DNA of 64,000 nucleotides from Zea mays. Taxonomy: Eukaryota; Streptophyta; Magnoliopsida; Poales; Poaceae. The stretch is from contig NC_050104.1 of the NCBI RefSeq assembly GCF_902167145.1, forward strand, positions 95,863,849 through 95,927,848, read 5' to 3'. A program made the position numbers and the translations under genes. The notes beneath the pieces were generated by a model. It saw only the letters and a program-made list of their open reading frames with translations, made no database searches and had not been told where the DNA came from. Shown one piece after another: positions 14,483-57,723 of this stretch. How positions within the stretch are numbered: position 1 is the stretch's first letter; each line of letters starts with the position of its first letter.

Positions 14483-14972
14483 CTAAAAATCATCATCACT
14501 GCTGTTTTCATAATACACGCCCCAATAATACTCTTCTTCGTCCGAGCTATTTGGAAGGGTCAGTTTCTTCACTTTAGCACATTTTGCACATAGCTCTGCA
14601 TCCATTATACCATCAAAATAACCTGTAATGTAGAGATCTTCGAGTACAGGGCAGTGATCAAGTATGGCTGTCAATCCTTCAGCAGTGAGGTCGCAGCCCA
14701 ACAATTCCAAGGAGCATAGCTCAGTCATTCTTGTGAATATACCTATAATCTTGTCCCTCATCCAGTCATCACGATAATTATAATTACCAGTGCATAACCT
14801 GATTCTGAGTTTCCTGAGAAGGGGGCAAGCTTGGCACACAGATTCCAAGAAATTCTCGGTGCTACAGAAAAGCAACGAGGGAGATACTTCAAGATCCTCG
14901 AGGAGAGGGAGTTTATTAAGCACTTGGCTGCCATTAATTGCTGAGAGATGGAGGCTTTTCAAACAGGGTGCT
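14483..14972 (-). CDS. F-box/LRR protein, exon 2 (LRR part and stop)
   Basis: This is the C-terminal half of a plant F-box/LRR protein (SKIP19/FBL-like; substrate adaptor of SCF ubiquitin ligases). The exon starts after acceptor TTATTACAG (AG at 14973-14974) with AGCACCCTG and ends at TAG 14483-14485. The protein has irregular leucine-rich repeats (SLHLSAI, KLPLLEDLEVS, CPLLRKLRI, LCSLELLGCDLT, HCPVLEDLYITG) and an acidic tail (SSDEEEYY, NSSDDDF). Joined to exon 1 (57236-57723) it keeps the frame and completes a codon for Arg across the junction. An ATG at 14962 lies inside the repeats and is unlikely to be a start. No stops or frameshifts are seen in this exon. Confidence 0.85.
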
Positions 14973-15124
14973 CTGTAATAAGCAACGCTATAAATTAGCA
15001 GCTTATATAGTCAACAAAAGTATTAATAGTGCTTTCAGAATAAGCAGCTAGGCTATTTAGGCTAGAACATTACGGGTATTATTTCTACGAGACCATAATA
15101 TCATAACTCATAACTGTAATGTAA

Positions 15125-15266
15125 GGGGGTGTTTGCGAACACAGGTTTTTAATACCACGGTATACAAATGATATGACATAAGCTCAGTTTACAATACCAT
15201 GGTAATATGAAATACTGAGAATTGTTCCAATACTGTAGAAAACTGTGTTCCTAATTAAACACACCA
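15125..15266. mobile_element. Candidate Tourist-like MITE
   Basis: Imperfect terminal inverted repeats: GGTGTTTGCGAACACAG on the left, and on the right the reverse complement of GGTGTGTTTAATTAGGAACACAG. The stretch is about 142 bp, has no coding, and is flanked by TAA on both sides (15122-15124 and 15267-15269). It sits in the original part of the F-box intron. Confidence 0.55.
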
Positions 15267-15695
15267 TAAACCACTGCAAATGAAACAATCTTAACTGCAC
15301 ACAAGAAATTATCCAAAATATAATATATTCTGCAAATTAGTAAGTGTAGCCGATTCAACCTTATAATAGAACATTTATCAATGCTTAGAAGCACAACGAT
15401 GACTACTAGTACAAATTTCATACCATCTACAAATTTAAGAGTTGGCAAAGTGGCTAAAAAGTGCTGGGCGCATATTCGTCGGGTCCCTCATGTAGTTTTT
15501 AAAATCTAGATACTATTATCAAACAACATAAACTAGTTTTACATTTTATTTCTGTCTTCATTAAAACCCTAATCTACAGCTTATTCTTTTCGGATCCCTA
15601 CTTTAGGTCTTGTTTGAAAGTAACATAGTTTTTAAGAATCTAGTTTTTATCTTCAGTTTTTAGAAACTGATTTTCGAACTCTCGGAGATACACAA

Positions 15696-16435
15696 TGTTG
15701 ACGCTTTTTCGGAGCGCCAAATACTCAAGAAAAACCGGCGGCGGTGCTCTCTGGTCAGGGGCGGACGGTCCGCAGCCTGGGGCCGGACGGTCCGCGACCT
15801 GGCGTGAGGCGGCGGTGCTCTCTGGTCAAGCGCGGACGGTCCGCGGCACAGGGCCGGACGGTCCGCGGCACAGGGCCGGACGGTCCGCGACCTGGTGCAA
15901 GAGCTCGGGTTCCCTGCCTGACGATCGGACGGTCCGCGCCCTAGGGCCGGACGGTCCGCGCGTACGCAGGGACGGCGGAAGATCGCCGGCGGCGCCTGGA
16001 TCTCGCTCCCGGGAGGGACCCCGTCGGGGAGGAGAGATCCTATGAGTTGTCTAGGCTCGGGCAGGCCGACCTAGACTCCTCTAATCGACGTAGAGTCGAG
16101 AAGAGGCGGAGAATTTGGGGATCGAGTGGCTAAACCTAAACTAGACTAGAACTACTCCTAGGATAAAATGCGAAATAGAAGTTGTATTGATTCGATTGAT
16201 GATCACAAATCGGCCGTAGACCTCTCTTTTTATAGAGGAGGGGGGCTGGACCCTTTACACGACTGGATTCCGAGCTAATTCCGCAAATCTAGCCAACAAA
16301 CATAGCACAAAACTCGGAACCCTAAACTGCTCTGCGTATGCGCGGACCGTCCGGCCCACAGGCGCGGACTATCCAGACCGCGGACCGTCCGGCCTCAGGG
16401 CCGGACCATTCGCCCGCTCAAAATGGAGCTCAACA
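15696..16435 (-). repeat. 3' LTR of the Tat-lineage element
   Basis: 740 bp. Carries repeated GGACGGTCC and GGACCGTCC palindromes at 15764-15970 and 16335-16420, one 22-bp unit more than the partner LTR. The polypurine tract lies just to the right (16438-16455; AAAAGGCAGGGGGCATA on minus). Confidence 0.85.
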
Positions 16436-16506
16436 TATGCCCCCTGCCTTTTGGTGGAGCTGAGCAAACCAAAAGCAACTAACTCGATGTGATTACATCG
16501 GTTCTC

Positions 16507-17573
16507 TTAGGCATCTTGCCACATACTAGGATGGTACTGTTTGAGGAAACGCCCATTCAAAGCCTTAGGCAAGTCCTTGCCTTGTAACGGTTGTAGCAAA
16601 TAGGCGTTGCCAAACATCACATGTTTTACTTTATAAGGGCCTTCCCAGCTTGGTGACCATTTCCCGAACTTCCGGTTTTTATTCCTTAGAGGCAGAATGG
16701 TCTTCCACACCAGGTCCCCTACTTGAAATGATTTTGCTTTGACCTTCTTGTTGTAGGCCCTGGCTACCATGATCTTGTCCTTTTCAATTGCTCCCAGAGC
16801 TATCATCCTCTTGTCGGTCACCTCATCAATATTATCAATCATTGAATCATAATAATCAGTAGCAGTTAGATCATTTTGTCTGGCGAACCTGACAGCATTC
16901 AAACTTATTTCCACAGGCAACACTGCTTCCTACCCATAGACAAGCTCAAAAGGAGATACTTTAGTAGCCCTATGTTTAGATATCCTATGAGCCCATAAAG
17001 CTTCAGACAAAATCTTATGCCAATGTTTAGGATTATCAGATATTTTCTTTTTTATCAAATTAATCAATGTCCTATTGCTAGACTCGGCCTGACCATTGGC
17101 CTGAGCATAATATGGAGATGAATTAAGCAGCTTAATTTTGTATAATTCAGCAAATTCACGTATCTCCTTTGACATAAAAGAAGTACCTTGATCTGTAGTT
17201 AAGGTCTGGGGAATGCCGAATCTATGAATAATATGCTCAGTTATAAACTCAATTACCTCCTTGTGTGTCATGTTCTTTAGAGCAACGGCTTCAGTCCATT
17301 TGGTGAAGTAGTCAGTGGCAACTAACACAAACCGATACCCCTTTGATGATGAAGGATGAATTTCTCCAATAAAGTCTAATCCCCATCCTCTGAACGGTCA
17401 AGGCTTGATGATAGGATGTAATTCGGCTGCAGGGACCAACTGTAGGTCGCCTAATTTTTGACACACTTGGCAACCCTTGTAGTACTTGAAACAATCAGCT
17501 ATCATACTAGGCCAATAAAAACCGGACCTTCGCTACAACCACTTCATCTTTGGAGCTGATTGATGAGTACCAC
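16507..17573 (-). pseudogene. Tat-element integrase, broken
   Basis: This piece of integrase runs from the second His of the HHCC zinc finger (GTHQSAPKMKW) through the paired cysteines (CQVC), the DDE core (ATDYFTKW, TTDQGTSF, GQAESSNRT) and the C-terminal domain (FQVGDLVWKTILPLRNKN), ending at 16507. Three in-frame stops break it: TAG 17533-17535, TGA 17398-17400 and TAG 16930-16932. The N-terminal start of the zinc finger lies on the far side of the Zeon-like element, at 49630 and up. Confidence 0.85.
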
Positions 17574-18254
17574 TGTTGGGGACTTGTTCTCAAATGCTTC
17601 GAATCAAGAACAAGGCAACATAAAATGTTAAATATCAAAGCCCTTCGTCCTTCAAATCATTATTTCCCTTCGGATATAACGAATCTAGGACGAAGGTCAT
17701 GAAGGACATACCATCATGATCATGATAAAAGATGGAAATCATTCATACAAAGTACAGAAAGTAACATAATTTCTATAAACATTATTATTAATCTATTTCC
17801 ATTTATATTACTTCTGTAAACAATGGTAAATTACAAATGTACCTTCGGCTTGAAGGAATGAGAATACAGGCGTGACGCAAAAGTGAATGCCAAGTCCGCG
17901 TGAACAGTACGAGAATACTGTTCACCTATTTATAGGCACGGGTCGTAGCCCATGCAAAATTACATTAATGCCATTTACATTTATCAATAACTCTATAGTA
18001 ATTCTTCGAGGTCTAATTTGGCTTTTCATCTTTAAGTCGGTTTCCCCTTCCCGCCGTTATGCCGAAGCTCTTCTGCACATAGCTTCGCGATCGTCTTATC
18101 CTTCGTCGTGATTGCCGTCCCAGTCTAGCTTCGTCTTAACCATGCTCTTGTATACTCGCAATCTGGCTTCGAAGGTACCTGTTCACATATTTTTCTTGGA
18201 AAACATAGTCAAATTACATTTTTGAGGACCTTCGGAAGCCGAAGGCCCCCAACA
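17574..18254 (-). repeat. 3' LTR of the Zeon-like element
   Basis: 681 bp; ends TGTTGGGGACTTG and GGCCCCCAACA on plus. Carries many CTTCG/CGAAG motifs. The likely polypurine tract (GCGAGGGGCTAC on minus) is at 18255-18266. Confidence 0.9.
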
Positions 18255-18409
18255 GTAGCCCCTCGCAATATTAATTTGCTGTAAAGATAAGTTTATATTG
18301 CGATATGGACGAAGGCTATGGTCCGAAGGTCCGAAAAAACACCTTCCTTTTGCTAGAATAGCAACAGTCATTGACAAGCGGGACCCTCCAGTTTTCGACA
18401 TACTGGGTG

Positions 18410-18417
18410 TATAAATA
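18410..18417 (+). promoter_or_regulatory. TATA box of the antisense gene
   Basis: TATAAATA on plus, about 150 bp before the ATG at 18562 and about 155 bp inside the element from the LTR edge. Spacing predicts a transcription start near 18440. This would give the plus-strand gene its own promoter, independent of the minus-strand LTR promoter. Confidence 0.6.
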
Positions 18418-18561
18418 AGAACTCATCCCGAGTTTATTTGGCACGCTCTCTTGCCAACTGCTCTTGCTCAACCATCTTTTAGCCTGCGCACGACAACACT
18501 TGCTTGGTTTTTTAAATTTTTAAGCTTCGGTTTCGGGAGTACTTTCTCAGCGCTTGCGAAG

Positions 18562-21500
18562 ATGTCTGAAGATAAGAAAGCTGTTGCTGAGACGAAGCTG
18601 AGCCTTTCTGAGGAGATGCATCTCGGCTTTCTTCAGTCAATAGTAAAGACCAATACGGAGAAGATCACTAGGGAAACCTTGGAGGGTTTATCTGAAGATA
18701 CTGGTGACAGTGACAGTTATGATGTAGAAAGTGGGGGTGAAAACTCCAAAGATCGACCGTGGCGACCAAGTCACATAGTCTTCGGCAAGTCGAGCATTAA
18801 GCAGAGTCATCTTGATACCATGAAGGGAAGGTATTTTCGAGACATGTCTATTGTGAGGGCGGATATTGGGGAGAAAACTGTGCCTACTCCCGAAGAAGAT
18901 GAAGTCGTGGTATTCCGAAGCTTCTTGAAAGCTGGACTACGATTTCCCTTAAGCAATTTTGTTGTGGAAGTACTGAAGGTTTTTGAAGTCTACCTTCACC
19001 AACTCACTCCTGAATCAATCATAAGGATGAATATCTTCGTGTGGGCCGTGAGAAGCCAAGGCTTGGAACCTGATGCGAAAAGTTTCTGCAACATACACGA
19101 ATTGTTATACGAGACAAAACCCTGGGGTAAGGAACAGTATCATAAAAACTTCGGCTGCTACAGCTTCGGCTCCCGATCTGGGTCAAGCTGCCCAGTGCCG
19201 ACCTTTCGGAAGAGATGGCCTGGCGACGGGATGAAGGAATGGTTTTACGTGAAGAATGACTTGAAATCACGAGAAGATATAAAGAAGATCATTATGCGTC
19301 CCATCTGGCAACGCTTCGGCCTGCGGAGGCCGAAGGTGGAAATGAATGAAGCAGCCGAAGAATGCCAGAGAGCCTTCGGAGTTGTTTGCTCTTTTATTGG
19401 GACGAGGGATTTGGTCCAAGAACACATTGCCTTCAGAGTATGGCCGCTTGTGGAAAAATGGGAAATGCCGCAGGAGACCATTAAAGAGACTGACGAAGGT
19501 GGACTAGTCAGGCTGAAGTACACATTTAAGTTCGGAGATAAATTCGTTGAGCCAGATGACGACTGGCTGAAAAGCATTGAAACTGTAAGTGATGAATTGC
19601 TTGGGGTATATTCGAAGGCCGAAGACACTGCATTGTCAGCGGCCTTCGGAGGCCGCAAAAAGAAAAGACTCAACCGAGTATTTGATGCAATTGGTTTTGT
19701 CTACCCCGACTACCGCTATCCAGCGCGGGGGCAAAAAAGAAAAGGCACAACTTCTGCGAAAGAAACTGCTTCAGCTGCTCCTAGCGAGCCAGCGCCGAAG
19801 AGAAAAAGGGTAAAGGTTCTCACACACCGGCCACGCTATATTGAACCAGGCACGGTGCCTGAGTTCGCCGGTGAGACCTCTTCGGCCACCGAAGCTAAAG
19901 AACCAACCCTGTTGCCAGAAATCAAAGAGTTGGCCGAATTGCCAGTAACAGAAAAGATGGAAGAACCAAGCACTGAAAAAGCAAAAACATCAGCTGAGAG
20001 AGTAAAAATATCAGAAATTTTAAGTCCTTCAGGAGAAATTGAGGTAGCAGAAATTAAAAAGGGGCCAACAGTGACCCCAAAAAGAAAAAGAATGGTTAAT
20101 GTGTTAGATGTTTTGGAGACAATTAAATCTTCAAGCATAACTCCAAAGAAGACCGCTGAAACTTCTGAAGCGTTTGCTGAAGCATCTGTTGTTGAAGCTT
20201 CGAAGCAACATACTGGAACTGAAGCCGGGCCTTCAGAGCCAACCAAGGTAAAACCTTTGGAAACAGAAGAAACGAAAATTGCAAAGGCAACCGAAAAAAT
20301 GAAAATGTCAGAGCCAATTTTGGTTGAAGAAATTGATACTGCTGCCCCCGAAGCACCTTCCAGAATATACGATTATATCGTTCGACACGCTTCGGGGAAA
20401 AAATTATCCGAAGAAGAAGTTTTTGAAGCTAATCACTATGCCAAAGAATTGAAATATCTGAAGGGGGCACTAGTATTCAATGGGACAAACGAAGATGACT
20501 TCCTATACTGCCTCCCAAACAACAAAGAATTATCCGTCTGTCGGGAGATGGCTAGAAGTATGGGATTTCCGAAGCTTGAAGCTGGACTCTGTGCTATGAC
20601 GAAGGACGATCTTGCAGATAGTCTTGCATATAATAGCCTAAAGGTATGAGAACTGCGTGTTTGGAAATTTTATAATTTGCAAATCATTCTTTTATTCTTA
20701 TACCAACTCTTTTACATATAGGGTTTAATACTAAGCAACGCGTTGAGAGCGCAAAAGAATGTCGAAGACGAGAGCTATGATATTGCTTTCAACAACCTAC
20801 GATCAGAGGTTATTAAGCTGAGAAACGAAGCTCTGGAAAAGGATAAAATTCTACTTACATTGGTGGATAAGATAAAAGAGGACGAAGCTGCCTCAAAGGC
20901 CCAGGCTGAAGCCCAAAAACGCGAAATTAAAGATCTTCAGAAACAGCTAGCTAGAGCTAAAGAAGAACGTATACTTGAAGAGACAAAACGAGAGCTTAGT
21001 GATCAATGGGCCGATCATTTAGAAATAAATGTTAAAGAGCTTCGTGCATCCCAGAGAAGATGCTATGTTAAATCCATAGAGTGTGTTAAGAAGATAAAAT
21101 CCAGCTTCGCCAATGTTGGCGCATTCTCTAACGAAGAGAATTTCTCAAGGGGCAATCTCGAAGGTCCGATTGAATGGATCAGTCACGAAGGTGAGGCCTT
21201 CGAGGAAATACTGAATAGCCGCGGAGACATATGTGCTTTTTCGGGTGCTAGAGGAATTGCTACTGTTTTGGAGAGGAAAGGTTGCGAGCATGTAAAATCC
21301 TTAGCGCAATCCGAAGCTACTTTGTCCTCCGAAGACATTAAAGACCCCTCAGCCGAAGCAAGCATGATCGGCGGAAAATTTTTCACCGATATTTGGGACA
21401 ACGGCGGACGAGAAATGGCTCAAGAAATTATTCAAAAGAGCAAAAAAGGCATTCACGATGCTAGAAAAATAACAGAGGCTGCTGAGAAAAGTACAGAGCC

Positions 21501-21744
21501 CGAAGGGCAAATAGGTACTAATTAGTGATAATTGGCTCTTCGTTGTAATCTTTTGATTTTGAACTTGTTCACGGCTTGTAATAATATATACGTACCTTTT
21601 CTTTTCTCGGAACCTGCTGAGCTAGCCCCAAGCCCTCAGACAAAGGGGGATGACGAAATTAGACAAATGGCAGAAGCCATCATGGATAGAGTTGTTGATC
21701 AACTTTTAAATGAAGCTGCAGAAGTAGTCTTAAAAGAAGATTAA
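18562..21744 (+). CDS. Antisense spliced gene of the Zeon-like element (putative gypsy-type transposon protein), three exons
   Basis: Exon 1 is 18562-20643, exon 2 20722-21514 and exon 3 probably 21626-21744, giving about 997 residues. Start: the frame opens at 18451 without an ATG; the first in-frame ATG is 18562 (MSEDKKAVAETK), downstream of a TATA box. Intron 1 (20644-20721) has AAG|GTATGA and ATATAG|GG and keeps frame. The N-terminal third (PHIVFGKSSIKQS, KAGLRFPLSNFVVEVL, WFYVKNDL) resembles the plant 'putative gypsy type transposon' domain (Pfam PF04195, from memory). Basic, nuclear-signal-like motifs follow (KRKRVKVL, PKRKRM), then a long coiled coil in exon 2 and a conserved-looking end (DDEIRQMAEAIMD). 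Function unknown. Antisense ORFs at this place are known in Tat/Grande-type elements. Confidence 0.75.
20644..20721 (+). other. Intron 1 of the antisense gene
   Basis: 78 bp, GTATGAG at the donor and TTTTACATATAG at the acceptor. It is AT-rich and phase 0. Reading through it would stop after LKV. Confidence 0.7.
21515..21625 (+). other. Intron 2 of the antisense gene, acceptor uncertain
   Basis: Donor ATAG|GTACTA at 21511-21520. The expected acceptor after TTTTCTTTTCTC (near 21600-21610) reads GG instead of AG. The next in-frame AG is at 21624-21625. Splicing to it gives phase-consistent APSPQTKGDDEI. Without splicing the protein ends at TN stop (21523-21525). Confidence 0.5.
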
Positions 21745-22148
21745 ATGCTACTGTAAAAACATTTAGTTTGTAATATTTGTCAAAAATCGTGTAACATTGT
21801 GTAACATATTAGCTGTTTATAACTCCATTTTTGACGATGCATGAAACATCATACACATACTATTTTTGAGCCTTCGGCGAAAAAACACCTTCCCTTCTTT
21901 TCATGCTTCGTAAAAATCAATAATCAATCCTTGTAAAATCAATAACCAATAGATCCTTTCATTTTGGTAATTGACAAAGGTATAACTCTTCAGCGGCTAT
22001 TTCTTGTGCCTTGTCAGTAATTCTTTAAAACCATCTTTGACCATCAATATCAAAACCCTCCCTTCTTGCATTGTTGATGCACTATGATGTATGATGTTAT
22101 GCTATGCGAATGATGTAATGATGTAATGTTATGCAAAATGATATTTGC
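21745..22148 (+). other. 3' flank of the antisense gene
   Basis: AT-rich with no frame of note. Probably the 3' UTR and end of the antisense transcript; short ATGATGTAATGTTATGC-like repeats occur at 22080-22130. Confidence 0.4.
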
Positions 22149-22327
22149 CGAAAATTGATGAAATCAGCGTTTATTTTTCGCTGTAAGCCTCCCTTAGGAG
22201 CTTCTTCGCCTTTTACTTCAGCGGAATCAACGTTTATTTTTCGCTGTAAGCCTCCCTTAGGAGCTTCTTCGCCTTTTACTTTCAGCGGAATCAGCGTTTA
22301 TTTTTCGCTGTAAGCCTCCCTTAGGAG
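22149..22327. repeat. 64-bp tandem repeats of the Zeon-like element (left part)
   Basis: Nearly three copies of a 64-bp unit that starts CAGCGGAATCA and contains TTATTTTTCGCTGTAAGCC and GGAGCTTCTTCGCC. The block is interrupted by the Ji-like element and resumes at 31301. Confidence 0.85.
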
Positions 22328-23608
22328 TGAGAGCACCTAGAGGGGGGGGGGGGTGAATAGGTGATCCTGTAAAACTTAAACTTATAGCCACAAAAACTTG
22401 TTAAGTGTTAGCACAATTATTGCCAAGTGGCTAGAGAGAAGTCTCAACAAAACACAATACCACAAAAGATCAAACACAGAGATGACACAGTGGTTTATCC
22501 CGTGGTTCGGCCAAGACCAACGCTTGCCTACTCCACGTTGTGGCGTCCCTACGGACGAGGGTTGCAATCAACCCCTCTCAAGCGGTCCAAAGACCCACTT
22601 GAATACCACGGTGTTTTGCTTGCTTTTTCTCAATCCCGTTTGCGAGGAATCTCCACAACTTGGAGCCTCTCGCCCTTACAATTGAAGTTCACAAAGAAAC
22701 ACAGAGCAAGGGTGGGAATGAGCAACGCACACAAGACTTCAAAAGATCAGAGCAACAACACGCACACAAGCAGCAACAAGAGCTCGCAACACAACTCAAC
22801 GAGTTCACAACTCCACAAGAGCTCTATATGCTATCACAATGAAACGAATGCGTGAGATCGATGTCTTGGTGCTTAGGAATATTGTAGGAATGCTTGGTGT
22901 ACTCCTCCATGCGCCTAGGGGTCCCTTTTATAGCCCCAAGGCAGCTAGGAGCCGTTGAGAACAAATCTGGAAGGACATCCTTGCCTTCTGTCGTCGGGCG
23001 CACCGAACAGTCCGGTGCACACCGGACACTGTCCGGTGCCCGATTTCTTTCCTTAACCGGCGCAGCCGACCGTTGCTGACCTTTGCAGATCTGGCGCACC
23101 AGACAGTCCGGTGCACACCGGACAGTCCGGTGCCTCCTTCCGACCGTTGGCTAGACCACGTGTCGCGCGCAGATTCCGCGGCCGACCGTTGGCTCGGCCG
23201 ACCGTTGGCTCGGCCGACCGTTGGCTCACCGGACAGTCCGGTGCACACCGGACAGTCCGGTGAATTTTAGTCGTACGCCATCGGCAATTTCCCGAGAGCG
23301 GCCTCTTCGCCCGAGGCAGCCTGGCGCACCGGACACTGTCCGGTGCACCACTGGACAGTCCGGTGCCCCAGACCGAAACAGCTTGTTGGCTGTACACAGC
23401 CAACATTCTCCTTTTCTTCTTCTCTCTGTTTCTAACACTTAGACAAATATATTAGTACACAAAACCAATGTACTAAGGCTTAGAAACATACCTTTACTTG
23501 TGATTTGCACTTTGTTCATCCATGGGCATAGATTCACATTTAAGCACTTGTGTTGCCACTTAATCACCAAAATACTTAGAAATGGCCCAAAGGCACATTT
23601 CCCTTTCA
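22328..23608 (-). repeat. 3' LTR of the Ji-like element
   Basis: 1281 bp, TGAAAGGGAAATGTGCC at its minus-strand start. GGACAGTCC/GGACACTGTCC palindromes lie at 23005-23370. Compared with the partner it has one more 18-bp CGGCCGACCGTTGGCT unit near 23190 and one more palindrome near 23335. Confidence 0.93.
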
Positions 23609-23626
23609 ATCTCCCCCTTTTTGGTG
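23609..23626 (-). other. Polypurine tract of the Ji-like element
   Basis: AAAAAGGGGGAGAT on minus directly before the 3' LTR, the primer for plus-strand DNA synthesis. Confidence 0.85.
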
Positions 23627-24397
23627 ATTTATGCCAACACAACATAAAGCAACTAGAACAAGTGCAATATCACTTCAAATAGAACTCAAATCTATTTTGA
23701 TTCATTTTTGGCATATATGGATCATCCTTTGCCACCACTTGGTTTGTTTTTGCAAATCAAACTCAAATCTCTATCTCTAAGTCAAACACACATGTTGAAG
23801 CATAAAGAGAGTCATTCCAAAAGAGATTGACCAAAGATTTCAAAAACTCCCCCTTTTTCCCATAATCAATACTTCTCCCCACAAGAAGCCAACTTTTGAC
23901 GAAAGAGACAATGCAAGAGTTTTGAACAAACCAAAAGCTCTATTCTACTATTTTCAAAATCTCTCAAGTGGTAGCTGATCCATTTATTGCTTTGGCCTTT
24001 ATTTTCTCCCCCTTTGGCATCAAGCACCAAAACGGGATCAATCTTGGCCCTTTAACCCCATTGCCTCACCAAAATCTTCAATTAAGAGCACAAAGGCAAT
24101 AAGAGTACGTGAGATGAACTTGGAATAAGTTACCCTCTCATCGGAGTGCAGTGGAAGTCTTTCATGGTCCAAGTCCACCTTTTTCCTTTAAATTCGCCTT
24201 CGAGACTAAATCAAGCAAACTCAACCACATAGTTAGTCTCAAAGGGTCAAGTTGTAACACATCTCCCCCTTAACATGTGCATCACCTTGCAACGGACTTG
24301 TGAGGTCCAGGGAGTGTTTGTACAACTTGAGCACCACAGTAAGCAACAAAATGCAGAATGAACATGATCAAAGGCATAAACACATGTATGCTACAAT
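23627..24397 (-). other. Non-coding spacer between pol and 3' LTR, with extra polypurine tracts
   Basis: Further purine runs on minus occur at about 23846-23862, 24004-24018 and 24262-24272. Repeated polypurine motifs before the 3' LTR are known for Sireviruses. No open frame of note. Confidence 0.7.
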
Positions 24398-27300: not shown

Positions 27301-27604
27301 TAAAGACAGACACATCTACATTTGTAAATAGACAGTTATACCCCATGTTGCATAATTGACTAACAGATAGCAAATTATATCCAAGAGACTCTACTAAAAA
27401 CACATTAGAGATAGAGTGCTCATTAGAAATTGCAATTTTACCTAACCCTTTTACCTTGCCTTGATTCCCATCACCGAATATGATTGAATCTTGGGAATCC
27501 TTATTCTTGACGTAGGAGGTGAACATTTTCTTCTCCCCCGTCATATGGTTTGTGCATCCACTGTCGATAATCCAGCTTGAACCCCCGGATGCATAAACCT
27601 GCAA
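24398..27604 (-). CDS. Sirevirus Pol (protease, integrase, RT, RNase H), RT motif mutated
   Basis: 1069 codons without a stop. Domain order is that of Copia: protease ([13 protein letters not shown], residues about 10-22), pre-integrase ([11 protein letters not shown], about 145-155), integrase core (MDLFGP about 207, SDNGSEF about 272, VVERKNRTL about 308), RT (about 600-850) and RNase H ([18 protein letters not shown], residues about 925-1050), ending RNLD. There is no ATG at its start; the first codon shown is TTG. It lies in the +1 frame relative to gag and is open upstream through the gag stop, so it needs frameshifting or splicing. The RT box expected as YVDD reads YVNY at 25340-25351, losing both catalytic aspartates. 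Confidence 0.93.
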
Positions 27605-27611
27605 GGCAAAT

Positions 27612-30008: not shown

Positions 30009-30043
30009 CTCTTCGGGCGGTTAGTCCCTTTCTTGAAGAGAAC

Positions 30044-30056
30044 GGCTCTGATACCA
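30044..30056 (-). other. Primer binding site of the Ji-like element
   Basis: TGGTATCAGAGCC on minus, initiator tRNA-Met type, two bases from the 5' LTR. Confidence 0.88.
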
Positions 30057-30058
30057 AT

Positions 30059-31300: not shown

Positions 31301-31305
31301 AGGAG

Positions 31306-36450: not shown

Positions 36451-36452
36451 AC

Positions 36453-36466
36453 CTTCCCCCCTTAAA
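36453..36466 (-). other. Polypurine tract of the chromovirus
   Basis: TTAAGGGGGGAAGG on minus, next to the 3' LTR. Confidence 0.85.
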
Positions 36467-41818: not shown

Positions 41819-41821
41819 GCA

Positions 41822-42265: not shown

Positions 42266-42627
42266 CTGCGGAAGGGAATCAAAGATAAAGATTATGGTGG
42301 AAGGAAAAAGAAAAAAGAGAGCCCGGATGATTTTAAAGAAAAGGGGTTAGCTCAAATTTTAATTCCTCTTTGTGTTTTATAATGCATGCATGCTGTAAGA
42401 AACGTTGCCTCTCAAAAGAAAATAGGGTGCCTTTTTAGGGCATCCTTAAAGATATAAGTATTGGCCCACAGGGCCTAATTAATTAGCCACCTATTTCTCC
42501 CTCTATGCCTAAGGCCTTTCGTCTTAGGTCTAGCGATCTAGTCCTGACGATCCGTAACAGTTTCTAAGCAAGTTTTAGGTTTTAAAAATTGGTATTCATG
42601 GTTTATTGTCCTTCTCTGTGGTGGAAT

Positions 42628-42641
42628 TTGCTCCGATACCA
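42628..42641 (-). other. Primer binding site of the chromovirus
   Basis: TGGTATCGGAGCAA on minus, a variant of the initiator-Met site, two bases from the 5' LTR. Confidence 0.75.
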
Positions 42642-42643
42642 GC

Positions 42644-47337: not shown

Positions 47338-47366
47338 AAAGAGCTGCTGCTGAGGTAGGATATTTG

Positions 47367-48875
47367 TCAGTAAATCTGCTTCGACTCTGGCACAGTGCTA
47401 TTGACTGTGCGAGCTTCAGACTCCTCTCTGAAGTCCCGCTGAAGGTTGACGCACTGACTCCCTTCTGGCTGCTGACCTCTTTGTGTTGGTGGTGGCGGTG
47501 GAGGCTGCTGCCAAGATGCTTGGGGTTGGCTTGCCGAAGCAACAGAAGCTGCAGGGTGGTTGCCTACATATTCTGGAATATAAGGCGAATGATACGAAGC
47601 AGTATGCATGACCTTCTTCGGCTGACTTTGTTGCGCTGCTGCTTCTGCTATCTCCTTCTGCTTCTGGATGGTAACGTGGCACATCCTGGTGGTATGGCCC
47701 TTGTCTTCACCACAGAATAGGCAGTAAATTTTTCTTGGCTGATCTCCAAACCTTCCCCCGAAGCCCCTAGCGCCTCTGCCCCTTGGCGCTGACGGCCGAA
47801 AAGAACTTTGCTGCTGCCCCGAAGCTTGTGAAGAGTATTGTGGCCTTTGCTGCTGGCTCCCTCGATCATCACTTTGAGTAGAGTTATGAATTGACCTAAC
47901 GTGCCTCGGGTGAAATCTTCCTCCGAAGCCCCTGGTCATTTCAGAGAACCTTAATGCTTCGTCCCTTCTTTGGCAGAAGTCATTGTCAGCTCGAATATAC
48001 TCGTCTATCTTCTGGAGCAGCTTCTCCAACATTTGTGGTGGCTTCCTGGCAAAGTACTGCGCTGAAGGTCCCGGCCGAAGCCCCTTAATCATGGCCTTAA
48101 TGACAATTTCATTGGGCACTGTTGGCGCCTGTGCCCTCAGACGCAGAAACCTTCGGACATACGCCTGAAGGTATTCTTCGTGATCCTGAGTACACTGGAA
48201 TAGAGCCTGGGCGGTGACTGGCTTTGTCTGAAATCCTTGGAAGCTGGTTATCAACATATCCTTCAGCTTTTGCCATGAGGTGATTGTCCCTGGCCGAAGA
48301 GAAGAGTACCAAGTCTGAGCGACACTCTTGACGGCCATGACAAAAGACTTTGCCATGACTGCTGTATTGCCACCATACGAAGATATGGTTGCCTCATAGC
48401 TCATCAAGAATTGCTTCGGGTCTGAATGACCGTCATACATGGGGAGTTGAGGTGGCTTGTAAGACTGGGGCCATGGTGTAGCCTGTAATTCTGTTGACAA
48501 AGGAGAAGCATCATCAAAAGCAAAATTTCCATGATGGAAATCTTCATACCAGTCTTCCTCATTGTAGAAACCCTCCTGATGGAGCTCTCCGCGCTGAGGC
48601 CTTCGGCTCTGGTCATCTTGAACAAGATGACGAACCTCTTCCGACGCTTCATCTATCTGCCTCTGAAGGTCTGCTAGACGGGCCATCTTCTCCTTCTTCT
48701 GTTGAACCTGTTGCTGAACCATTTCCAGGTTTTGGATTTCCTGGTCCAAGTCGTCCTCCGGAGGCGTTGGACTAGTAGCCTTCCTCTTTTGACTTCGGGC
48801 CTCCCTGAGAGAAAGGACGTCCTGATTGGGATCCAGCGGCTGTAGAGTACCCGCTGAAGCTTTTTTCGGCGGCAT
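47367..48875 (-). CDS. Gag of the Zeon-like element
   Basis: 502 residues, ATG 48875 (MPPKKASAGTLQPLDP), stop TGA 47367-47369. A coiled coil at about 45-90 (QEIQNLEMVQQQVQQKKEKM) is followed by the Gypsy gag capsid fold (about 140-300; YDGHSDPKQFLMSYEATI, TITSWQKLKDMLITSFQGF, AYVRRFLRLRAQ) and a Cys/His knuckle CLFCGEDKGHTTRMC, in which the spacing before His is five rather than the usual four. The C-terminus is rich in Gln and Pro. No pol follows; the element would need another element's enzymes. Uninterrupted. Confidence 0.9.
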   Translation of the reverse strand: MPPKKASAGTLQPLDPNQDVLSLREARSQKRKATSPTPPEDDLDQEIQNLEMVQQQVQQKKEKMARLADLQRQIDEASEEVRHLVQDDQSRRPQRGELHQEGFYNEEDWYEDFHHGNFAFDDASPLSTELQATPWPQSYKPPQLPMYDGHSDPKQFLMSYEATISSYGGNTAVMAKSFVMAVKSVAQTWYSSLRPGTITSWQKLKDMLITSFQGFQTKPVTAQALFQCTQDHEEYLQAYVRRFLRLRAQAPTVPNEIVIKAMIKGLRPGPSAQYFARKPPQMLEKLLQKIDEYIRADNDFCQRRDEALRFSEMTRGFGGRFHPRHVRSIHNSTQSDDRGSQQQRPQYSSQASGQQQSSFRPSAPRGRGARGFGGRFGDQPRKIYCLFCGEDKGHTTRMCHVTIQKQKEIAEAAAQQSQPKKVMHTASYHSPYIPEYVGNHPAASVASASQPQASWQQPPPPPPTQRGQQPEGSQCVNLQRDFREESEARTVNSTVPESKQIY

Positions 48876-48929
48876 GACGAAGGTGATGCTTGCCGAAAGT
48901 GTTCAAGACTCAAAAAATGGAAGTGAATT

Positions 48930-48948
48930 CACCGGAGGTGGGCACCAA
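48930..48948 (-). other. Primer binding site candidate of the Zeon-like element
   Basis: TTGGTGCCCACCTCCGGTG on minus directly after the 5' LTR. I cannot assign the tRNA with confidence. Confidence 0.6.
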
Positions 48949-49629
48949 TGTTGGGGACTTGTTCTCAAATGCTTCGAATCAAGAACAAGGCAACATAAAA
49001 TGTTAAATATCAAAGCCCTTCGTCCTTCAAATCATTATTTCCCTTCGGATATAACGAATCTAGGACGAAGGTCATGAAGGACATACCATCATGATCATGA
49101 TAAAAGATGGAAATCATTCATACAAAGTACAGAAAGTAACATAATTTCTGTAAACATTATTATTAATCTATTTCCATTTATATTACTTCTGTAAACAATG
49201 GTAAATTACAAATGTACCTTCGGCTTGATGGAATGAGAATACAGGCGTGACGCAAAAGTGAATGCCAAGTCCGCGTGAACAGTACGGGAATACTGTTCAC
49301 CTATTTATAGGCACGGGTCGCAGCCCATGCAAAATTACATTAATGCCCTTTACATTTATCAATAACTCTATAGTAATTCTTCGAGGTCTAATTTGGCTTT
49401 TCATCTTTAAGTCGGTTTCCCCTTCCCGCCGTTATGCCGAAGCTCTTCTGCACATAGCTTCGCGATCGTCTTATCCTTCGTCGTGATTGCCGTCCCAGTC
49501 TAGCTTCGTCTTAACCATGCTCTTGTATACTCGCAATCTGGCTTCGAAGGTACCTGTTCACATATTTTTCTTGGAAAACATAATCAAATTACATTTTTGA
49601 GGACCTTCGGAAGCCGAAGGCCCCCAACA
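48949..49629 (-). repeat. 5' LTR of the Zeon-like element
   Basis: 681 bp, identical in length to 17574-18254. Differences seen by eye include A/G near 49150, A/T near 49230, A/G near 49287 and T/C near 49321. Confidence 0.9.
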
Positions 49630-50597
49630 AAAATCCCTTCATGTACTTCGGCCATGGCTAATATAGCATCATCTGGGCCCAAGCACTTAAGCAGGATGTC
49701 ATTGACTGTTCGGCGGTAAAGTTCGTCACTCATCAAAACATACTTGAAAGCTGTTCGCCGAATGTTCTTATCTGTTTTGATATTGGGATTTCGTAAATAA
49801 TTAAGTATAGGTGTCCTCCAATCTCTTGCATCGGCTTCATTGTCAGCCGAATCGATTAAGAGAACATTTCTGGTAACCTCGGACGGTCCGGCGCCATCAC
49901 ACGGACGGTCCGCGACCTGGGAATTTGGCTCTGCACTGATTATCAGATTTTCAGTTTTGTGAAACTTCCCTCTCTTTATCCGATAACCTGATGCATCTTG
50001 TGCCAAATCGTTAGCTCTATGATTCTCAACTCTAGAGATATGTCGAATACTGAATTCGTCAAAAGAATGAATTATGCTCCAACATTTCTCAAGGTAACTA
50101 TTTAGAGTACCATCAAAACATTGATATTCTTCTAACACTTGTTGGACAACCAGCTGAGAATCACCAAATACCTTCACATGTTTTACTCCCATACCATTTA
50201 AAAGTTCTAAGCCGAATAGGAGGGCCTCATATTCAGCTTGATTATTAGTGCAATAAGTTTTCAATCGGCTAGAAAAGTCAAAGGAGACATTACTTGGTGA
50301 AACAAGCACAATGCCAATTCCTTGCCCTTCATTGCAAACTGATCCATCAAAATATAAAGTCCAAGGAGTAATGGTGAGGTATGACATGTCTAGTTCATGA
50401 ATATCATTAACCTGATGTTCTACAATGAAATCCGCTATGACTTGGCCTTTTATAGATTTCAATGGTTCATAGTCCAAGTCATATTCTATGAGTGCATAAG
50501 CCCACTTACCAATTCTACCACCCATAATTGGGTTATGCAACATGTATTTGATCACATCGGCTTGACCAGAAACAGTGCAATGACTAGACAATAAATA
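49630..50597 (-). pseudogene. Tat-element RNase H and start of integrase
   Basis: The frame is open from about 50597 to the Zeon-like LTR. RNase H residues are present: LYFDGSVCNEGQG, NQAEYEALLFGLELL, FGDSQLVVQQVLEEY, and HISRVENHRANDLAQ. A linker with ADRPCDGAGPSEV is encoded by two GGACGGTCC palindromes (49880-49913). It ends at MAEVHEGI, the first His of the integrase zinc finger; the second His is at 17562-17573, beyond the insertion. Downstream residues read from the LTR are not element protein. Confidence 0.85.
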
Positions 50598-52144
50598 TCA
50601 TCTACATTTGGTGCATGCAAAAAACAAGCATAAGCATAACTTTTCAATAAAAGTGTACCTTGTTTCAACATCCACCAACCTTCGGCTTAGATATGTCACC
50701 ACATGCTCCTTCCCCTCAGTTTCTTGTGTCAGAACAGCCCCAATGACCTTATCCTCAGCTGCAATGTATAATCGGAATGGTACTCCTGCTCGTGGTGCTT
50801 TTAATACGGGAGCCGAAGATAAGTATTTTTTGATGAGATCAAATGCTTCTTGCTGTTCTGCCCCCAAGCGAATTCGGCATCATTCTTAAGCCGAAGAATA
50901 GGGGTGAACGCATCAATCTTCCCAGCTAGGTTAGAAATAAATCTTCGTAAATAATTCACCTTGCCGAGAAACCTCTGTACCTCGACCTTACAGGTCGGAG
51001 GTCCCACATTCCGAATAGACTTGATTCAGTCAGGGTCTATCTCTATACCATGTTCATGTATGAAAAATCCTAAAAACTTACCGGCCGACACTCCAAAAGC
51101 ACATTTACGTGGGTTCATTTTCAAACCATACTGACGCATCTTATCAAAGGCTTTGCGCAAATCAGCTATATGAGAACTAAACTCAGCCGATTTGACTACA
51201 ATATCATCAATGTAAACTTCCACAGTGTTTCCTAACAATTCATGGAAGATCAAATTCATAGCCCTCTGATAAGTAGCACCAGCATTTTTCAGACCAAATG
51301 TCATGACAACCCACTCAAATAAACCAATGAAGCCTGGACATATAAAGGCCATTTTAGACGCATCTTCTTCGGCCATGAAAATCTGATTATATCCGGCATT
51401 ACCATCAAGGAAGCTAATAATTCTATTTCCTGATGCATTATTGATTAATGTGTCGGCTATGGGCATGGGATATTCGTCTTTAGGAGTTGCTTTATTTAAA
51501 TTGCGAAAATCAATGCATACTCTAAGTTTACCTGACTCCTTCTTCTCCACCGGCACAATATTGGAGACCCACTCTGCGTATCTGCAAGGTCTGATAAAAT
51601 CAGCTTCTAGCAGCCGGTGGATTTCGTCCTTGATGCGTGGGAGAAGATCTGGACGAAATGTTCTAGCTCTTTGCTTGAAAGGTCTGAAACCAGATTTAAT
51701 AGGCAGCCGATGCTCTACGATCTCTCGGCTTAATCCAGGCATCTCAGTATAATTCCAAGCAAAGCAATCTGAATATTCCTTCAATAGACCGATCATCTCA
51801 TCTCTAGGATCGGTCTCCAGGGTCTTGTTTACAAAAGTCGGCCTTGGAGTTTTACCATCTCCTATGTCAATCTCCTCCAAAGGATCGGCCGATGTAAACC
51901 CCTGTCCTAGTTTATCAAGATCTCTGAATTCCTCTATCATGTTCCCCACAGAGGAATTAGAAGATCTTTGTGTGACGGCGGACTCTCCGGTCTGGGGGAC
52001 CGAATCATCCGTAATACTGTCCTTTTGCTGTGATATATGTTCGGTCTTAAAGTCCGAACCCTTTTGTGAAAGACCAGACCATCCGGCCTTGGAAGCCGAA
52101 CTGTCCGTGGCCAGAGACTCATGAACTTTGTGTGTATTCATCAT
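50598..52144 (-). pseudogene. Tat-element reverse transcriptase, broken
   Basis: RT pieces: MPGLSREIVEHRLPI, VRVCIDFRNLN-type box, FLDGNAGYNQI, MTFGLKNAGATYQRAMN and an intact YIDDIV at about 51200-51215. Stops occur at 51026-51028 and 50598-50600, and the frame changes around 50800-51000 (pieces 51007-50801 and 50867-50598). The N-terminal part (52144-51850) is a linker with degenerate palindromes. Confidence 0.85.
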
Positions 52145-52151
52145 TTAAACT

Positions 52152-55100
52152 TTATTTAGGATTTAGCCGATTCTCCATCGGCTCTAGCATTACAGGAATG
52201 AAACCTTTCTTATCTATACTTATGAATTGATAATCAGAAAAATCTACTCCTGTTAGACATGTAGCAGTCTCATAAGTCCAGAGTACAGGGGCATCGGCCA
52301 CAGCGATGCAGGCCGATACATCAACATGTACTTGTTCTATGTCATCGCCTACCCATTGTATTAGCATTTGATGTAATGTAGAAGGTATACATTGATTGGC
52401 GTGAATCCAATCTCTTCCTAGAATTAAACTGTAATTTCCTTCTACATCAGCGACGAAGAATGCAGCAGCAAGGGTCTTAGTCCCGATGGTTAATTCAACG
52501 GACGTGACTCCCCTGGCTTTGATCGAACTATCAGTTCCAACACCGCTGAGGGTCATGTTGGTCTTGACAAGTTCGTCATCTTGTTTACCTAATTTTCTGT
52601 ATAATGAATAAGGCATTAGATTTACAGCTGCCCCTCCGTCTACCAACATCTTAGCAATCGGTATCCCATCAATGTGACCGCGCACGAAGAGCGGCTTTAA
52701 ATGATTTACCGATTCCTTTGGTTTAGTAAAGGCGACTTCTTTAGGACCAAAATCAAACTGGGCAACAACAGGTTCATCGTCGCCGATAATAGTACAATCG
52801 GCGGAAAATGTAATAATATTTACATACATACCTGGGCGTTCTGGAGAAGCCTCGTAGTCGACCAGGTCTTCTCCCAGCAGGTCGTCCTCCTCCATTGATG
52901 TTATCGTGTCGTTGGAGGCTTCCTGGTGAACGGCGGACGGTCCGCGCGCGGGGGCCGGACGGTCCGCGCCTGGTGCAGGTTGTCTAGAGGCTTCCTGGTG
53001 AACGGCGGACGGTCCATGCGCGGGGGCCGGACGGTCCGCGCCTGGTGCAGGTTGACTTTCTATTTCTGTGGCCGTTTGTTTTTTCTCAACGGCCTTCGGT
53101 ATCCATTTCTTTTGTGGTGGCGGGTATAGTGGATGTGTGTCATTGAATATCTTTTCCGCCTTTTTCTCCTGGCTCTCCTTTACTCTTAGGCGCTGTAATT
53201 TTCTCTTTTGGGACCGTGTCAATCCCGCTGGACACCATCGAGGCATGGAGTATTTTGGATCGGCTGTTTTGATGGTAACCGTATCCTTTTTGGTTGTGTT
53301 GGTCGATTCACCAAAAATCATTGGCCCTTTATTGTCTCCCTGTATGACAACATCTGTAGTGCCTATTTTGATGATGTCCTTTTTCGTTGTTCTTTGAGTT
53401 GCTACAGGCATATGCCCCCCTGCCGGATTGGTCGGCCTAGGAGGCCGAGTAGTCCGGCAATCTTGTTGGGCCTGTGCCTGGTGACCGGATTCAGCAGCGC
53501 TCAATTGGTCTTGCACCGGCGGCGCCAACCTATCAAAAACGGATGTTTGGGGTGCCCCCCAGGCGGGGTACTGTGGCATCCCAAATGGATATGGTGGCAT
53601 GCCCCACATTTGATTTGGGACATATGGTGGAGGTAAGTATGTGTATGGATATGGCATAGATGGATAAGGAGGTGGAGGGGTCCATGTCGGCATGTTAGGT
53701 CTCAATTGTACAATAGGACCTTTCATTTCTTCCGATTGGTGAGGTGGTTCAATCGGCCTGACCTGACGTTGCTCATGAATGGGTGAGCGGGGTCGCTTCG
53801 GTGGCCGGTCACTGGGGCCGACCTTCTTTTTCACATATTTAGACAACAATTGATCGAAAGTCGGGCCAGGCTTGATCAGCCGACCAGCTGCTTTAAATGT
53901 ATTTGTTTTCCACGTACCTATCTCTGGTCGTCGTGGTTTGAAGGTACGTGGTCGCTGCGAGTCCTGAGCATGGCCGGACCGTCCGCCAGAGTCCTCCGGA
54001 CCGTCCGGAGAAGCGTCGGACCGTCCGCGTCGGGACGGCGGACTGTCCGTGATGCGCAGCACGGGTTCCCGCAACTGTCTCCCTGTCTGCGCTTGCCCCC
54101 TAGTGCTAGAGGCTGTGATGGTCACCTTTAGGGTCTCCCCTCCATCGGGAGTCTTCTCGGCCACCACTTTCCTGCAAGAAACTTTACAATCCCCGTCGAC
54201 CTTTTTAGCATTGCCGATGATTGTTTCCTTGCCTTTGCCATTATCGGCTGTATTTGGCCGAACCAGGACTTTCTTGCCCTCGAAGTCAATCATGTTCATC
54301 GGAAAGGGCTCTATATCCACCTGCATTTCCTGAAATTTCAATCGTCCTTCGTTAATGGCCGATTGAATCTGTCGCCAAAATACATTACAATCATTAGTGG
54401 CATGAGAAAATGAGTTATGCCACTTGCAGTACGCTCGACGTTTTAGCTCGTCGGCAGATGGAACAGTGTGATTTATTTTAATATTGCCATTTTTGAGTAA
54501 TTCGTCAAATATTCTATCACACTTACCAACATTAAACGTAAACTTAACCTCCTCTTGCTGTTTCTTTTGAACCGGCTGTAAGGAGGAACAAGCCGAAGAT
54601 TTGGCCTGTTTTGGCCAAACCATTTCAGCAGCGTACACTTCCGCTGGTTCATCATCCGAGCTACTTTGGTCGCATTCTACTATGTGTATGTTGTGACGTA
54701 TTGTTTTAGCAGTTTCTTTGCTCCGGCTTTCGCAAGCCAAAGCCCTCTGGTGTAACTGTGCTAGTGTAAAAAATTGGATGCCTTCTAATCTTTCTTTTAA
54801 ATAATATCGCAGACCATTAAAGACTAATCCTACTAGCTGTTTTTCTGCTAAATGAATTTGAAAGCATTGGTTTCTTGTATCGCGGAATCTCCGGATGTAA
54901 TCATTAACCGATTCATCCTTTGTTTGTTGTAATGACACTAAATCTACCAAATCCAACTCATAGTCACCGGAGAAAAAAAGATCATGAAATTTTTGTTCTA
55001 GATCCCCCCACGATGAAATGGAATTAGGAGGTAAAGTGGCATACCATGCAAACGCGGTTCCTGTTAGAGATAATGAAAATAAGCGCACGCGAAATGCCTC

Positions 55101-56333
55101 TGTGTCGGCCAATTCTCCCAATTGTGCTAAGAACTGGCCTATATGTTCACGCGTGTTTTTCCCTTGATCACCCGAAAATTTTGCGAATTCGGGTATTCTA
55201 GTTCCCTGTGGGTACGGGTGGTGATCAAATCGGCTGTCATAAGGTTTCCGATATGATTGCCCCCCAGGGATCATGCTTACTCTGAGCTTATCTCGGAACG
55301 CCCCGGCTATTTCTTCCCTTACTATATCAATGGCAGCCGGTGCAAGACCACCGGCTCTCTGGTCAAACATAGGTGGTGTTGGTTGCATGTTAGTATGTTG
55401 TCATTCCCCCCATTGGTTTGAGCTACGTGGTGCATTTCCATTTGCCCTATATGGCTCATAGGTTTGATCGTTTCTTTCTGGCCTTCTAGGTGGGGCCGGA
55501 AAGCTTTCCTGGGCTCTGGATCCTGGATTAATGGGCTGGTGCATTGCATAGTGTGATGGGAAGTGTTGCTGGGACGGGCGAGGATTCAGGTAATAATCCT
55601 CCTCAAAAGACTCATGCGCGGACTGTCCGGCTATGTACCCGGACCGTCCGTGATTATATGCGGACCGTCCGTCGTTGTATGCGGACCGTCCGACTGGGTA
55701 GTTTGGGTTCTGTGTCATATGTGGTGGCTCGGGTGCGTGTCTGGGTACTTCATTAAAAATGGGCCCGGCCATGACTGGCCCGGACGGTCCGCGATCACGC
55801 GCGAACGGTCCGGACATGTGCAGATCGGCTGTTTTGCTGCCGATTTGCGGTTGCTCAGGGTACGTGTCCATCGGCATCCCATAAAGGGGTTGTGACTGGT
55901 CGTGACAACCTACAACCGATGGATTACGCGTATTACCCCCTAATTCTACTTCGTGTGATGGGAAATTTGCAATGCTAGATTTGTCAAATGCACGTGCTAA
56001 TCTCCTATAGTCGTTTTGCATATCCCCTATGATATTTTGCATTTGCTCACGCTGTTCATCTATATAATTCTTAAGAGATTGCAGCTCATTTGTATTACTT
56101 ACATTGGGGATGTCTGGCGTGGGTCGTAGTGAAGCCGGATCTGTCGCCCGATGTCGGACGACTTTATTGTTCCTGTCCACTTTGAAGTTGGCCAAGAACC
56201 TCGCTTTTGCCTCCTGGATCATCTGCTCCTTGTGCTCCTCAAACTGGAGCTATTCGTCAGCCGGCAATGTGTCCCAAGTCGGCTCTATGATGTTGCTTGG
56301 AGATACTTCAGAACTATCCCTTGAACCAGCCAT
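52152..56333 (-). pseudogene. Tat-element Gag and protease, two in-frame stops
   Basis: Start ATG 56333 (MAGSRDSSEVSP). In-frame TAG 56250-56252 and TGA 55401-55403 break it into 27-codon, 282-codon and 1081-codon stretches. Gag: GTRIPEFAKFSGDQGKNT, LTGTAFAWYATLP, DLEQKFHDLFF, and a Cys/His stretch CKWHNSFSHATNDC. The protease near 52620-52650 has MLVDGGAAVNLMPYSLY, with the VDGG form usual in the Tat lineage. Linkers encoded by palindrome repeats (for example ADRPAPAHGPSAVHQE twice at 52918-53050) swell the protein. The stop at 52152 is followed by a new frame for RT. Confidence 0.85.
52918..53056. repeat. 70-bp tandem duplication with palindromes inside coding sequence
   Basis: Two copies of a unit starting GCTTCCTGGTGAACGGCGG, each with two GGACGGTCC (or variant) palindromes. 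Both copies stay in frame. Confidence 0.85.
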
Positions 56334-56372
56334 TGAGGGCCGATTTGATAGGTCTAAATATGTCTTCCCCAG

Positions 56373-56386
56373 CGGAGTCGCCAAAA
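56373..56386 (-). other. Primer binding site of the Tat element (tRNA-Arg type)
   Basis: Near 56366-56386, TGGCGACTCCGCTGGGG on minus, a few bases from the 5' LTR. This site is shared by Tat/Ogre-type elements. Confidence 0.75.
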
Positions 56387-56390
56387 AGTA

Positions 56391-57108
56391 TGTTTACGCT
56401 TTTTCGGAGCGCCAAATACTCAAGAAGAACTGGCGGCGGTGCTCTCTGGTCAGGGGCGAACGGTCCGCGGCCTGGGGCCGGACGGTCCGCGACCTGGCGT
56501 GAGGCGGCGGTGCTATCTGGTCAAGCGCGGACGGTCCGCGACACAGGGCTGGACGGTCCGCGACCTGGTGTAGGAGCTCGGGTTCCCTGCCTGACGATCG
56601 GACGGTCCGCGCCCTAGGGCTGGACGGTCCGCGCGTACGCAGGGGCGACGAAAGATCGCCGGCGGCGCCTGGATCTCGCTCCCGGGAGGGACCCTGTCAG
56701 GGAGGAGAGATCCTAGGAGTTGTCTAGGCTCGGGCAGGCCGACCTAGACTCCTCTAATCAACGTAGAGTCGAGGAGAGGCGGAGAATTTGGGGATCGAGT
56801 GGCTAAACCTAAACTAGACTAGAACTACTCCTAGGATAAAATGTGAAATAGAAGTTGTATTGATTCGATTGATGATCACAAATCGGCCGTAGACCTCTCT
56901 TTTTATAGAGGAGGGGGGCTGGACCCTTTACACGACTGGATTTCGAGCTAATTCCGCAAATCTAGCCAACAAACATAGCACAAAACTCGGAACCCTAAAC
57001 TGCTCTACGCATGCACGGACCGTCCGGCCCACAGGCGCGGACTGTCCGAACCGCAGACCGTCTGGCCTCAGGGCCGGACCGTCCGCCCGCTCAAAATGGA
57101 GCTCAACA
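56391..57108 (-). repeat. 5' LTR of the Tat-lineage element
   Basis: 718 bp, one 22-bp palindrome unit shorter than the left LTR. Palindromes at 56455-56635 and 57015-57085. Confidence 0.85.
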
Positions 57109-57235
57109 CCCAGAAAGATATTTTATACAATCGATTGAATACATTTGAAAAGCTAAGTGCTACTTTCAAGCTAATGATGATACTAAAAAATGGAAACAAA
57201 CTTGGGAGATGGAGAAGTAAAGGACTAGACCATAC

Positions 57236-57723
57236 CTTCCCACAAGATAGAGCAGCATCTCACTGTCGCAGGATCCCTAGAAGGCTTCGCACTGCCCCGC
57301 GCTACGATCTAGCGTGGCACGCGCCATCGCGCGCGTGGCGGGGTGAAAAACCGAAATCGTGTCTATGCCCATGTCGATGCGGCGCCACAGCAGAGCCTCG
57401 CCGACGGCTACGCGGCGCCACGTGGTGCACACGAACTCTGCGCCCAGCATGATCTCGCGGGGCCCAAGCTTGAGGAAGACGGTTATCAGGATGTCCTGAG
57501 GCAGCGCCGCCCAGTCCCTCGGCTCACTGGGCGCTGGTGGATGCGAGGGAGGTTCTGCTCTGTGGTGACCACCGTGGCGGCGGGAGGAGGACGACATAGC
57601 TACGGCCTGTGAAATATTAGCCATACGAAAACGTTGGTGAGGCCATGAGGGGGTCTGTGGTGTGGAGTATGATTTCGCTGCCGCCTGCATTTTATTGACG
57701 CTTGAGCTGCGAGTTCGATGCAT
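57236..57723 (-). CDS. F-box/LRR protein, exon 1 (F-box), with an in-frame TAG
   Basis: The F-box (RDWAALPQDILITVFLKLGPR, then EFVCTTWRRVAVGEALLWRRIDM) would bind SKP1 and link the protein to an SCF ubiquitin ligase. Several ATGs precede it (57723, 57690, 57621, 57597); the start at 57597 (MSSSSRRHGG) is also possible. After DRSAGQCEAF there is an in-frame TAG (57277-57279), then GSCDSEMLLYLVG and the donor GGAAG|GTATG at 57240-57231. Joined to exon 2 the product would be 325 residues apart from the TAG. With the TAG, only a 148-residue F-box protein without LRRs can be made. Either a recent pseudogene, a truncated gene or a sequence error. Confidence 0.85.

Follow-up and report, generated by a model that had tools for sequence, protein, structure and literature searches.

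Two pieces of an apparent plant gene, one encoding an F-box and the other leucine-rich repeats (LRR), stand at the two outer edges of a nest of retrotransposons in the maize genome. Are they the exons of one gene whose intron has grown by insertion, or separate fragments, and could such a gene still work? The locus lies in a stretch of 64,000 nucleotides of Zea mays (assembly GCF_902167145.1, contig NC_050104.1, positions 95,863,849 to 95,927,848 of the forward strand), which is referred to as the window and in which all coordinates are counted. The original prediction, made from the letters of the window, had proposed a single host F-box/LRR gene split by a 42-kb nested retrotransposon intron. 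Based on a comparison with related proteins and on a dissection of the nest, the locus is in all probability one F-box/LRR gene copy of a grass, with an intron expanded by nested long terminal repeat (LTR) elements, and the copy is likely dead.

Exon 1, the F-box exon, is located at 57236..57723 on the minus strand and matches PF12937 with 38.7 bits against a cut-off of 24.3. Exon 2, the LRR exon (14483..14972, minus strand), is open to its own TAG stop at 14483-14485; its LRR region can be aligned to the named relatives described below, and the Pfam LRR models by themselves stay under their cut-off (best 22.7 versus 27). Solved structures gave weak F-box and LRR matches (n=10, E up to 1, best 1e-4), which were not used. 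Both splice signals are found on the minus strand at the predicted sites, i.e., the donor GGAAG|GTATGG after 57236 and the acceptor TTATTACAG|A before 14972. They enclose a phase 2 intron (14973..57235, minus strand) of 42,263 bp, 98% of which is LTR retrotransposon. Across the junction AG|A rebuilds an arginine codon, reading LYLVG-R-APCLKSL, and the joined exons measure 978 nt, a length divisible by three, as the prediction of a kept frame demanded. The joined frame is nevertheless not open, because exon 1 contains an in-frame TAG (57277..57279, minus strand, 41 nt upstream of the splice donor) that the original prediction had not recorded.

A protein search with the joined translation, carrying an X at the stop, returned 138 matches, the best 120 of which were listed. 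Among the matches listed, Zea mays F-box protein SKIP19 (P0001; 78% identity over 100% of the joined query) and Zea mays putative F-box/LRR-repeat protein 23 (P0002; 80% identity over 96%) are the best, followed by another maize record and then by proteins of Miscanthus (P0004) and Panicum (P0005). Both exons are aligned within a single protein in P0001, P0002 and P0004. In P0002, P0004 and P0005 the reading ..YLV(G/E/D)-R passes straight into APSLKSLH without a gap, and the junction of P0002 and P0004 is the same as in the window copy. The order of an F-box followed by LRRs, on which the predicted SKIP19/FBL-type identity was founded, is common to the window copy and the SKIP19/FBL23 relatives (P0001, P0002, P0009 and Miscanthus P0004). 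Judged by sequence, a single grass gene copy of the SKIP19/FBL23-like F-box/LRR type accounts for both exons, and its closest kin are maize genes. What sets the window copy apart from these relatives is the in-frame TAG within exon 1, the reduced length of exon 2 and the nest of 41 kb in the intron. Trees built from single exons had little resolution and were given no weight (P0008, uncut in the exon 1 tree, lies on a long branch). Relatives of either exon were also sought in viral contigs, where four and five pattern matches were found and none was confirmed.

The relatives also correct one end of exon 1. Its donor end stands as predicted, whereas the start at 57723 is doubtful and translation likely begins at 57624 or 57690: P0013 starts at a methionine aligned with 57690, P0001 and P0002 start at 57624, and P0023 reads VHRTRS versus MHRTRS in the window.

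Relatives lacking an intron at this codon had been named as an outcome fatal to a single gene. Altogether 139 relatives were compared; 127 match exon 1 and 107 reach its end. From there, 79 of the 107 fit a loose pattern for continuation into LRR-like sequence. Another 15 read R-Y, as an unspliced AG|GTAT or AG|GTAC would. The read-through pattern itself had matched 17 of the 107, from which P0103 and P0137 were removed for having no R-Y; another 11 fit neither pattern. Five of the 15 R-Y relatives (P0013, P0021, P0023, P0125 and P0131) read RYGLVL exactly as the window does, and the reading RYASPSPEFVSIF of P0126 fits the window intron with a deletion. At the other end, a reading that crosses the acceptor, ..YYRAP, is common to P0009, P0066, P0069 and P0088. 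Many of the matches look like conceptual translations of unspliced contigs. The intron is thus placed at the same codon in relatives as read from translations, not from genomic DNA, and the feared outcome did not materialize.

What is left of the old intron fits the same picture. A 5' part of 127 bp (57109..57235, minus strand) resembles the readings past exon 1 of P0013, P0021, P0023, P0125, P0126 and P0131, and the ends of a 3' part of 723 bp (14973..15695, minus strand) resemble P0131 at the nest edge and P0009 at the acceptor edge. Together they leave 850 bp of intron outside the outermost LTR element, which with its contents takes up 41,413 bp; the predicted remainder of about 850 bp in a 42-kb intron is confirmed by measurement. 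The leftover intron also contains, at 15124-15271, a sequence with GGGTGTTTG / CACACC-like ends and inverted arms (15137-15151 and 15236-15250), possibly a miniature inverted-repeat transposable element.

The insertion site is found uninterrupted in the relative P0131. This protein runs from exon 1 into the intron as ..FSNVFNRLYKMSFW-VYLRVRK, and its continuation past exon 1 reads NVFNRLYKMSFW-VYLRVRK. In the window, NVFNRLYK is encoded 13 bp beyond the right end of the nest (57122-57145), and VYLR and RVRK two bases beyond its left end (15671-15693). The six-frame translation of the window, 127,996 residues in all, contains each of the three strings a single time. When the window flanks are joined, they align to P0131 with one extra residue. 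Because P0131 holds both edges adjoining, the outer edges of the nest were neighbours before the outermost element arrived, and the nest sits inside the intron of the gene. The claim of one gene instead of two fragments is upheld by this site, by the same junction in relatives and by the unspliced readings into the same intron ends.

The nest consists of four elements, each with a pair of LTRs with TG...CA ends, and all four lie in the sense of the gene as judged by their pol or gag frames. The outermost, element A (15696..57108, minus strand), is of the Ty3 type; its LTRs, at about 15696-16435 and 56387-57108, differ by a Kimura two-parameter (K2P) distance of 4.5%. Element B (17574..49629, minus strand; LTRs 17574-18254 and 48949-49629; K2P 1.0%) lies inside the integrase region of A. 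The integrase reading of A ends with ..AEVHEGIF at the right edge of B and restarts with GTHQSAPKMKW at its left edge, two parts that presumably adjoin in intact integrases. Inside B, and apart from each other, are element C (22328..31300, minus strand; K2P 0.7%), of the Copia type with an RVT_2 pol, and element D (31637..47337, minus strand; LTRs of about 4.7-4.8 kb; K2P 0.75%), of the Ty3 type with a chromodomain. Exact 5-bp target-site duplications surround C (AGGAG) and D (AAAGA). The domain scan took in 15 of the 17 listed open reading frames (ORFs) of at least 190 amino acids; it recognized pol domains in A, C and D and only gag in B, with no pol of B among the ORFs scanned.

The LTRs of A are more diverged than those of B (Fisher p = 1e-4), C (1e-7) and D (2e-11), and A is clearly older than the other three. 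At a substitution rate of 1.3e-8 per site per year, A would have inserted about 1.7 million years ago and B, C and D 0.3-0.4 million years ago. Together with the nesting order, the greater age of the outermost element bears out the stepwise growth of the intron that had been proposed. In the course of events that we propose, A would have entered the intron about 127 bp past the donor, B would have landed in A, and C and D in B, and an intron of at most about 1 kb would in this way have reached 42 kb.

Is the gene that surrounds this nest still intact? The column of the exon 1 TAG is covered with a residue in 117 of the 127 relatives matching exon 1 and uncovered in 10; it holds Ser in 36, Trp in 29, Arg in 18, Lys in 8, Cys, Thr and Gly in 6 each, and Ala and Glu in 4 each. 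These residues say little about the TAG, because the position varies among relatives and internal stops are invisible in a protein collection. Trp is present in the nearest maize-like relatives (P0001, P0002, P0003, P0006, P0009, P0013, P0021, P0125, P0126 and P0131), and Cys in P0023. If Trp were ancestral, the stop would have arisen by a C to T change on the opposite strand, where the site is CAG (CHG); methylated DNA is expected to mutate in this way. One protein, P0127 (a cluster of 3 sequences from 12 contigs), is identical to the window and ends at the same residue as the TAG. Exon 2 is also shortened, by at least four codons compared with relatives. Between two of its conserved motifs there are 15 residues, versus 19-25 in 59 of 60 relatives and 6 in the remaining one, P0048. 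This spacing was counted in the 60 of 139 proteins that hold both motifs, and it replaced codon counts from BLAST gaps, in which 34 of 92 rows were gapless at this place. The gapless rows include P0121, an exon 2-only protein identical to the window, which (a cluster of 3 sequences from 12 contigs) may be the window's own record.

Owing to the in-frame TAG of exon 1 and the shortened exon 2, we no longer infer the working F-box/LRR gene that the original prediction had implied; the window copy is best read as a pseudogene, or as a copy reduced to its F-box. The contrary possibility, a working gene that splices a 42-kb intron normally and whose TAG results from a sequencing error, is private to one allele or is bypassed, is unlikely. 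Apart from its shortening, exon 2 is open, donor and acceptor are intact, and maize does splice very long introns filled with transposable elements (TEs): one report describes a ZmSSV complementary DNA (cDNA) of full length cloned across intron 17, which measures 54,336 bp by annotation (PMC4653816), and another counts TEs above 1 kb in introns of 4,156 of 39,656 filtered maize genes, among which unexpressed genes are not commoner (PMC4133378). Against a working gene speak the TAG itself, the 12-contig cluster of P0127 that stops at the same residue, and the reduced motif spacing. In addition, no protein combining exon 1 with this exon 2 is present among the best 120 of the 138 matches or the 26 matches of another search, the only identical match to this exon 2 being P0121.

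Another LTR-like sequence (TGTCGGCGTTTCGAGACC..., 57938-64000), with 56-bp tandem repeats at 58703-59112, appears to start about 215 bp upstream of the ATG at 57723, and the upstream region of the copy is therefore short. Elsewhere among the relatives, the exon 2 relative P0122 has a divergent, apparently frameshifted C-terminus, and its longest contig measures 18,052 bp, as does that of the exon 1 relative P0023. This suggests another decaying copy of the gene, with both exons close together.

Several observations weigh against the reading of one gene with a stepwise expanded intron and a dead frame. In the maize models P0001, P0003 and P0006, exon 1 is joined further downstream in exon 2 and not at the junction of the window. 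NVFNRLYK and VYLRVRK are held by P0131 only, one protein in 139, which is known as a translation from a contig no longer than 1,886 bp; compared with it, the joined flanks are 3 nt longer and offset in frame by 2 nt, and the two diverge after VRK. The duplication around A is imperfect (CACAA versus CCCAG, 3 of 5 matching), and no clear target-site duplication was found at B. The ages of B, C and D do not differ significantly (B versus C p 0.60, B versus D 0.48, C versus D 1.0), and the order of B before C and D is therefore taken from the nesting. Finally, P0127 backs the stop, but it may be the window's own record.

Some of these points would suit two unrelated or separately duplicated fragments, e.g., the ends of tandem paralogues joined by deletion or LTR recombination. 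The imperfect duplication around A is compatible with such an origin, the family has several maize-like copies, and the single-exon trees leave the same-copy origin of both exons unsettled. P0131, however, contains both nest edges in one continuous reading; the exons match the relatives in splice phase, order and strand; and the longest contig shared by P0023 and P0122 suggests, without proof, that both exons occur on one contig. Two unrelated fragments are rejected on the uninterrupted site in P0131, and the joining of fragments in general has hardly any probability left. A gene fragment carried by a Helitron or a Pack-type element, dead on arrival before the retrotransposons came, is rather unlikely. 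Non-syntenic genes of maize commonly include truncated copies (PMC2773423), and the gene has several similar copies; yet the window copy retains its two exons, the coding intron at either end and, upstream, a TATA-like stretch, and Helitron ends were not searched for.

On the preferred reading of one gene copy stretched in place, any product would be small. If the locus were transcribed and spliced, it would yield an F-box fragment only, 115 residues from the methionine at 57624, which keeps the domain expected to bind SKP1 and lacks the substrate-binding LRRs. Stops within 50-55 nt of a junction tend to escape junction-dependent mRNA decay, and the TAG, 41 nt before the only known junction, falls inside this zone. 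That the locus is still transcribed, with its all-sense 42-kb TE intron spliced or prematurely polyadenylated, and makes a short F-box-only protein as a possible dominant-negative partner of its paralogues, is very doubtful.

The window contains further features. A tRNA-Val (AAC) gene is located at 13066-13139 on the plus strand, about 1.3 kb past the 3' end of the LRR exon. At 18415-21525 on the plus strand, two long ORFs lie opposite the gag strand of B; the first matches PF04195 (putative gypsy type transposon) and the second has no match. A Copia-type gag with a zinc knuckle (413-1273, minus strand) belongs to a further element, at the window's left edge.

TE-filled introns are a known kind of structure, since maize examples are in print, one of them reaching 54 kb in an expressed gene (PMC4653816, PMC2773423, PMC4133378). 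Across 22 Mb of one maize region, introns with more than 1 kb of repeats make up about 2.4% of the total, the largest intron among 544 genes measures 18,487 bp, and a nested TE example in an active gene is shown (PMC2773423). In that gene, a conserved intron has been enlarged by LTR elements as here, to more than 12 kb versus 647 bp in sorghum; it has two elements and a full-length cDNA, whereas the window copy has four elements, 42 kb and a broken gene (PMC2773423). Intron 17 of ZmSSV resembles the window intron in being filled with repeats and tens of kb long, and differs in that its gene has a cloned full-length cDNA, while the window copy is known from sequence alone (PMC4653816). No description of this particular locus was recognized in the literature, as judged from titles and abstract openings.

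In summary, the locus is ordinary for maize in kind and large in size, with unusually direct evidence of the empty site. Before a pair of exons that seems spliceable across a TE nest is called a host gene, its frame needs checking. If expressed, the locus would test the tolerance of plant splicing for nested LTR elements in the same sense. It offers a well-resolved case of a plant gene copy that would have been stretched and lost, with an empty site in a relative, a datable outer insertion, younger inner ones and a decayed frame.

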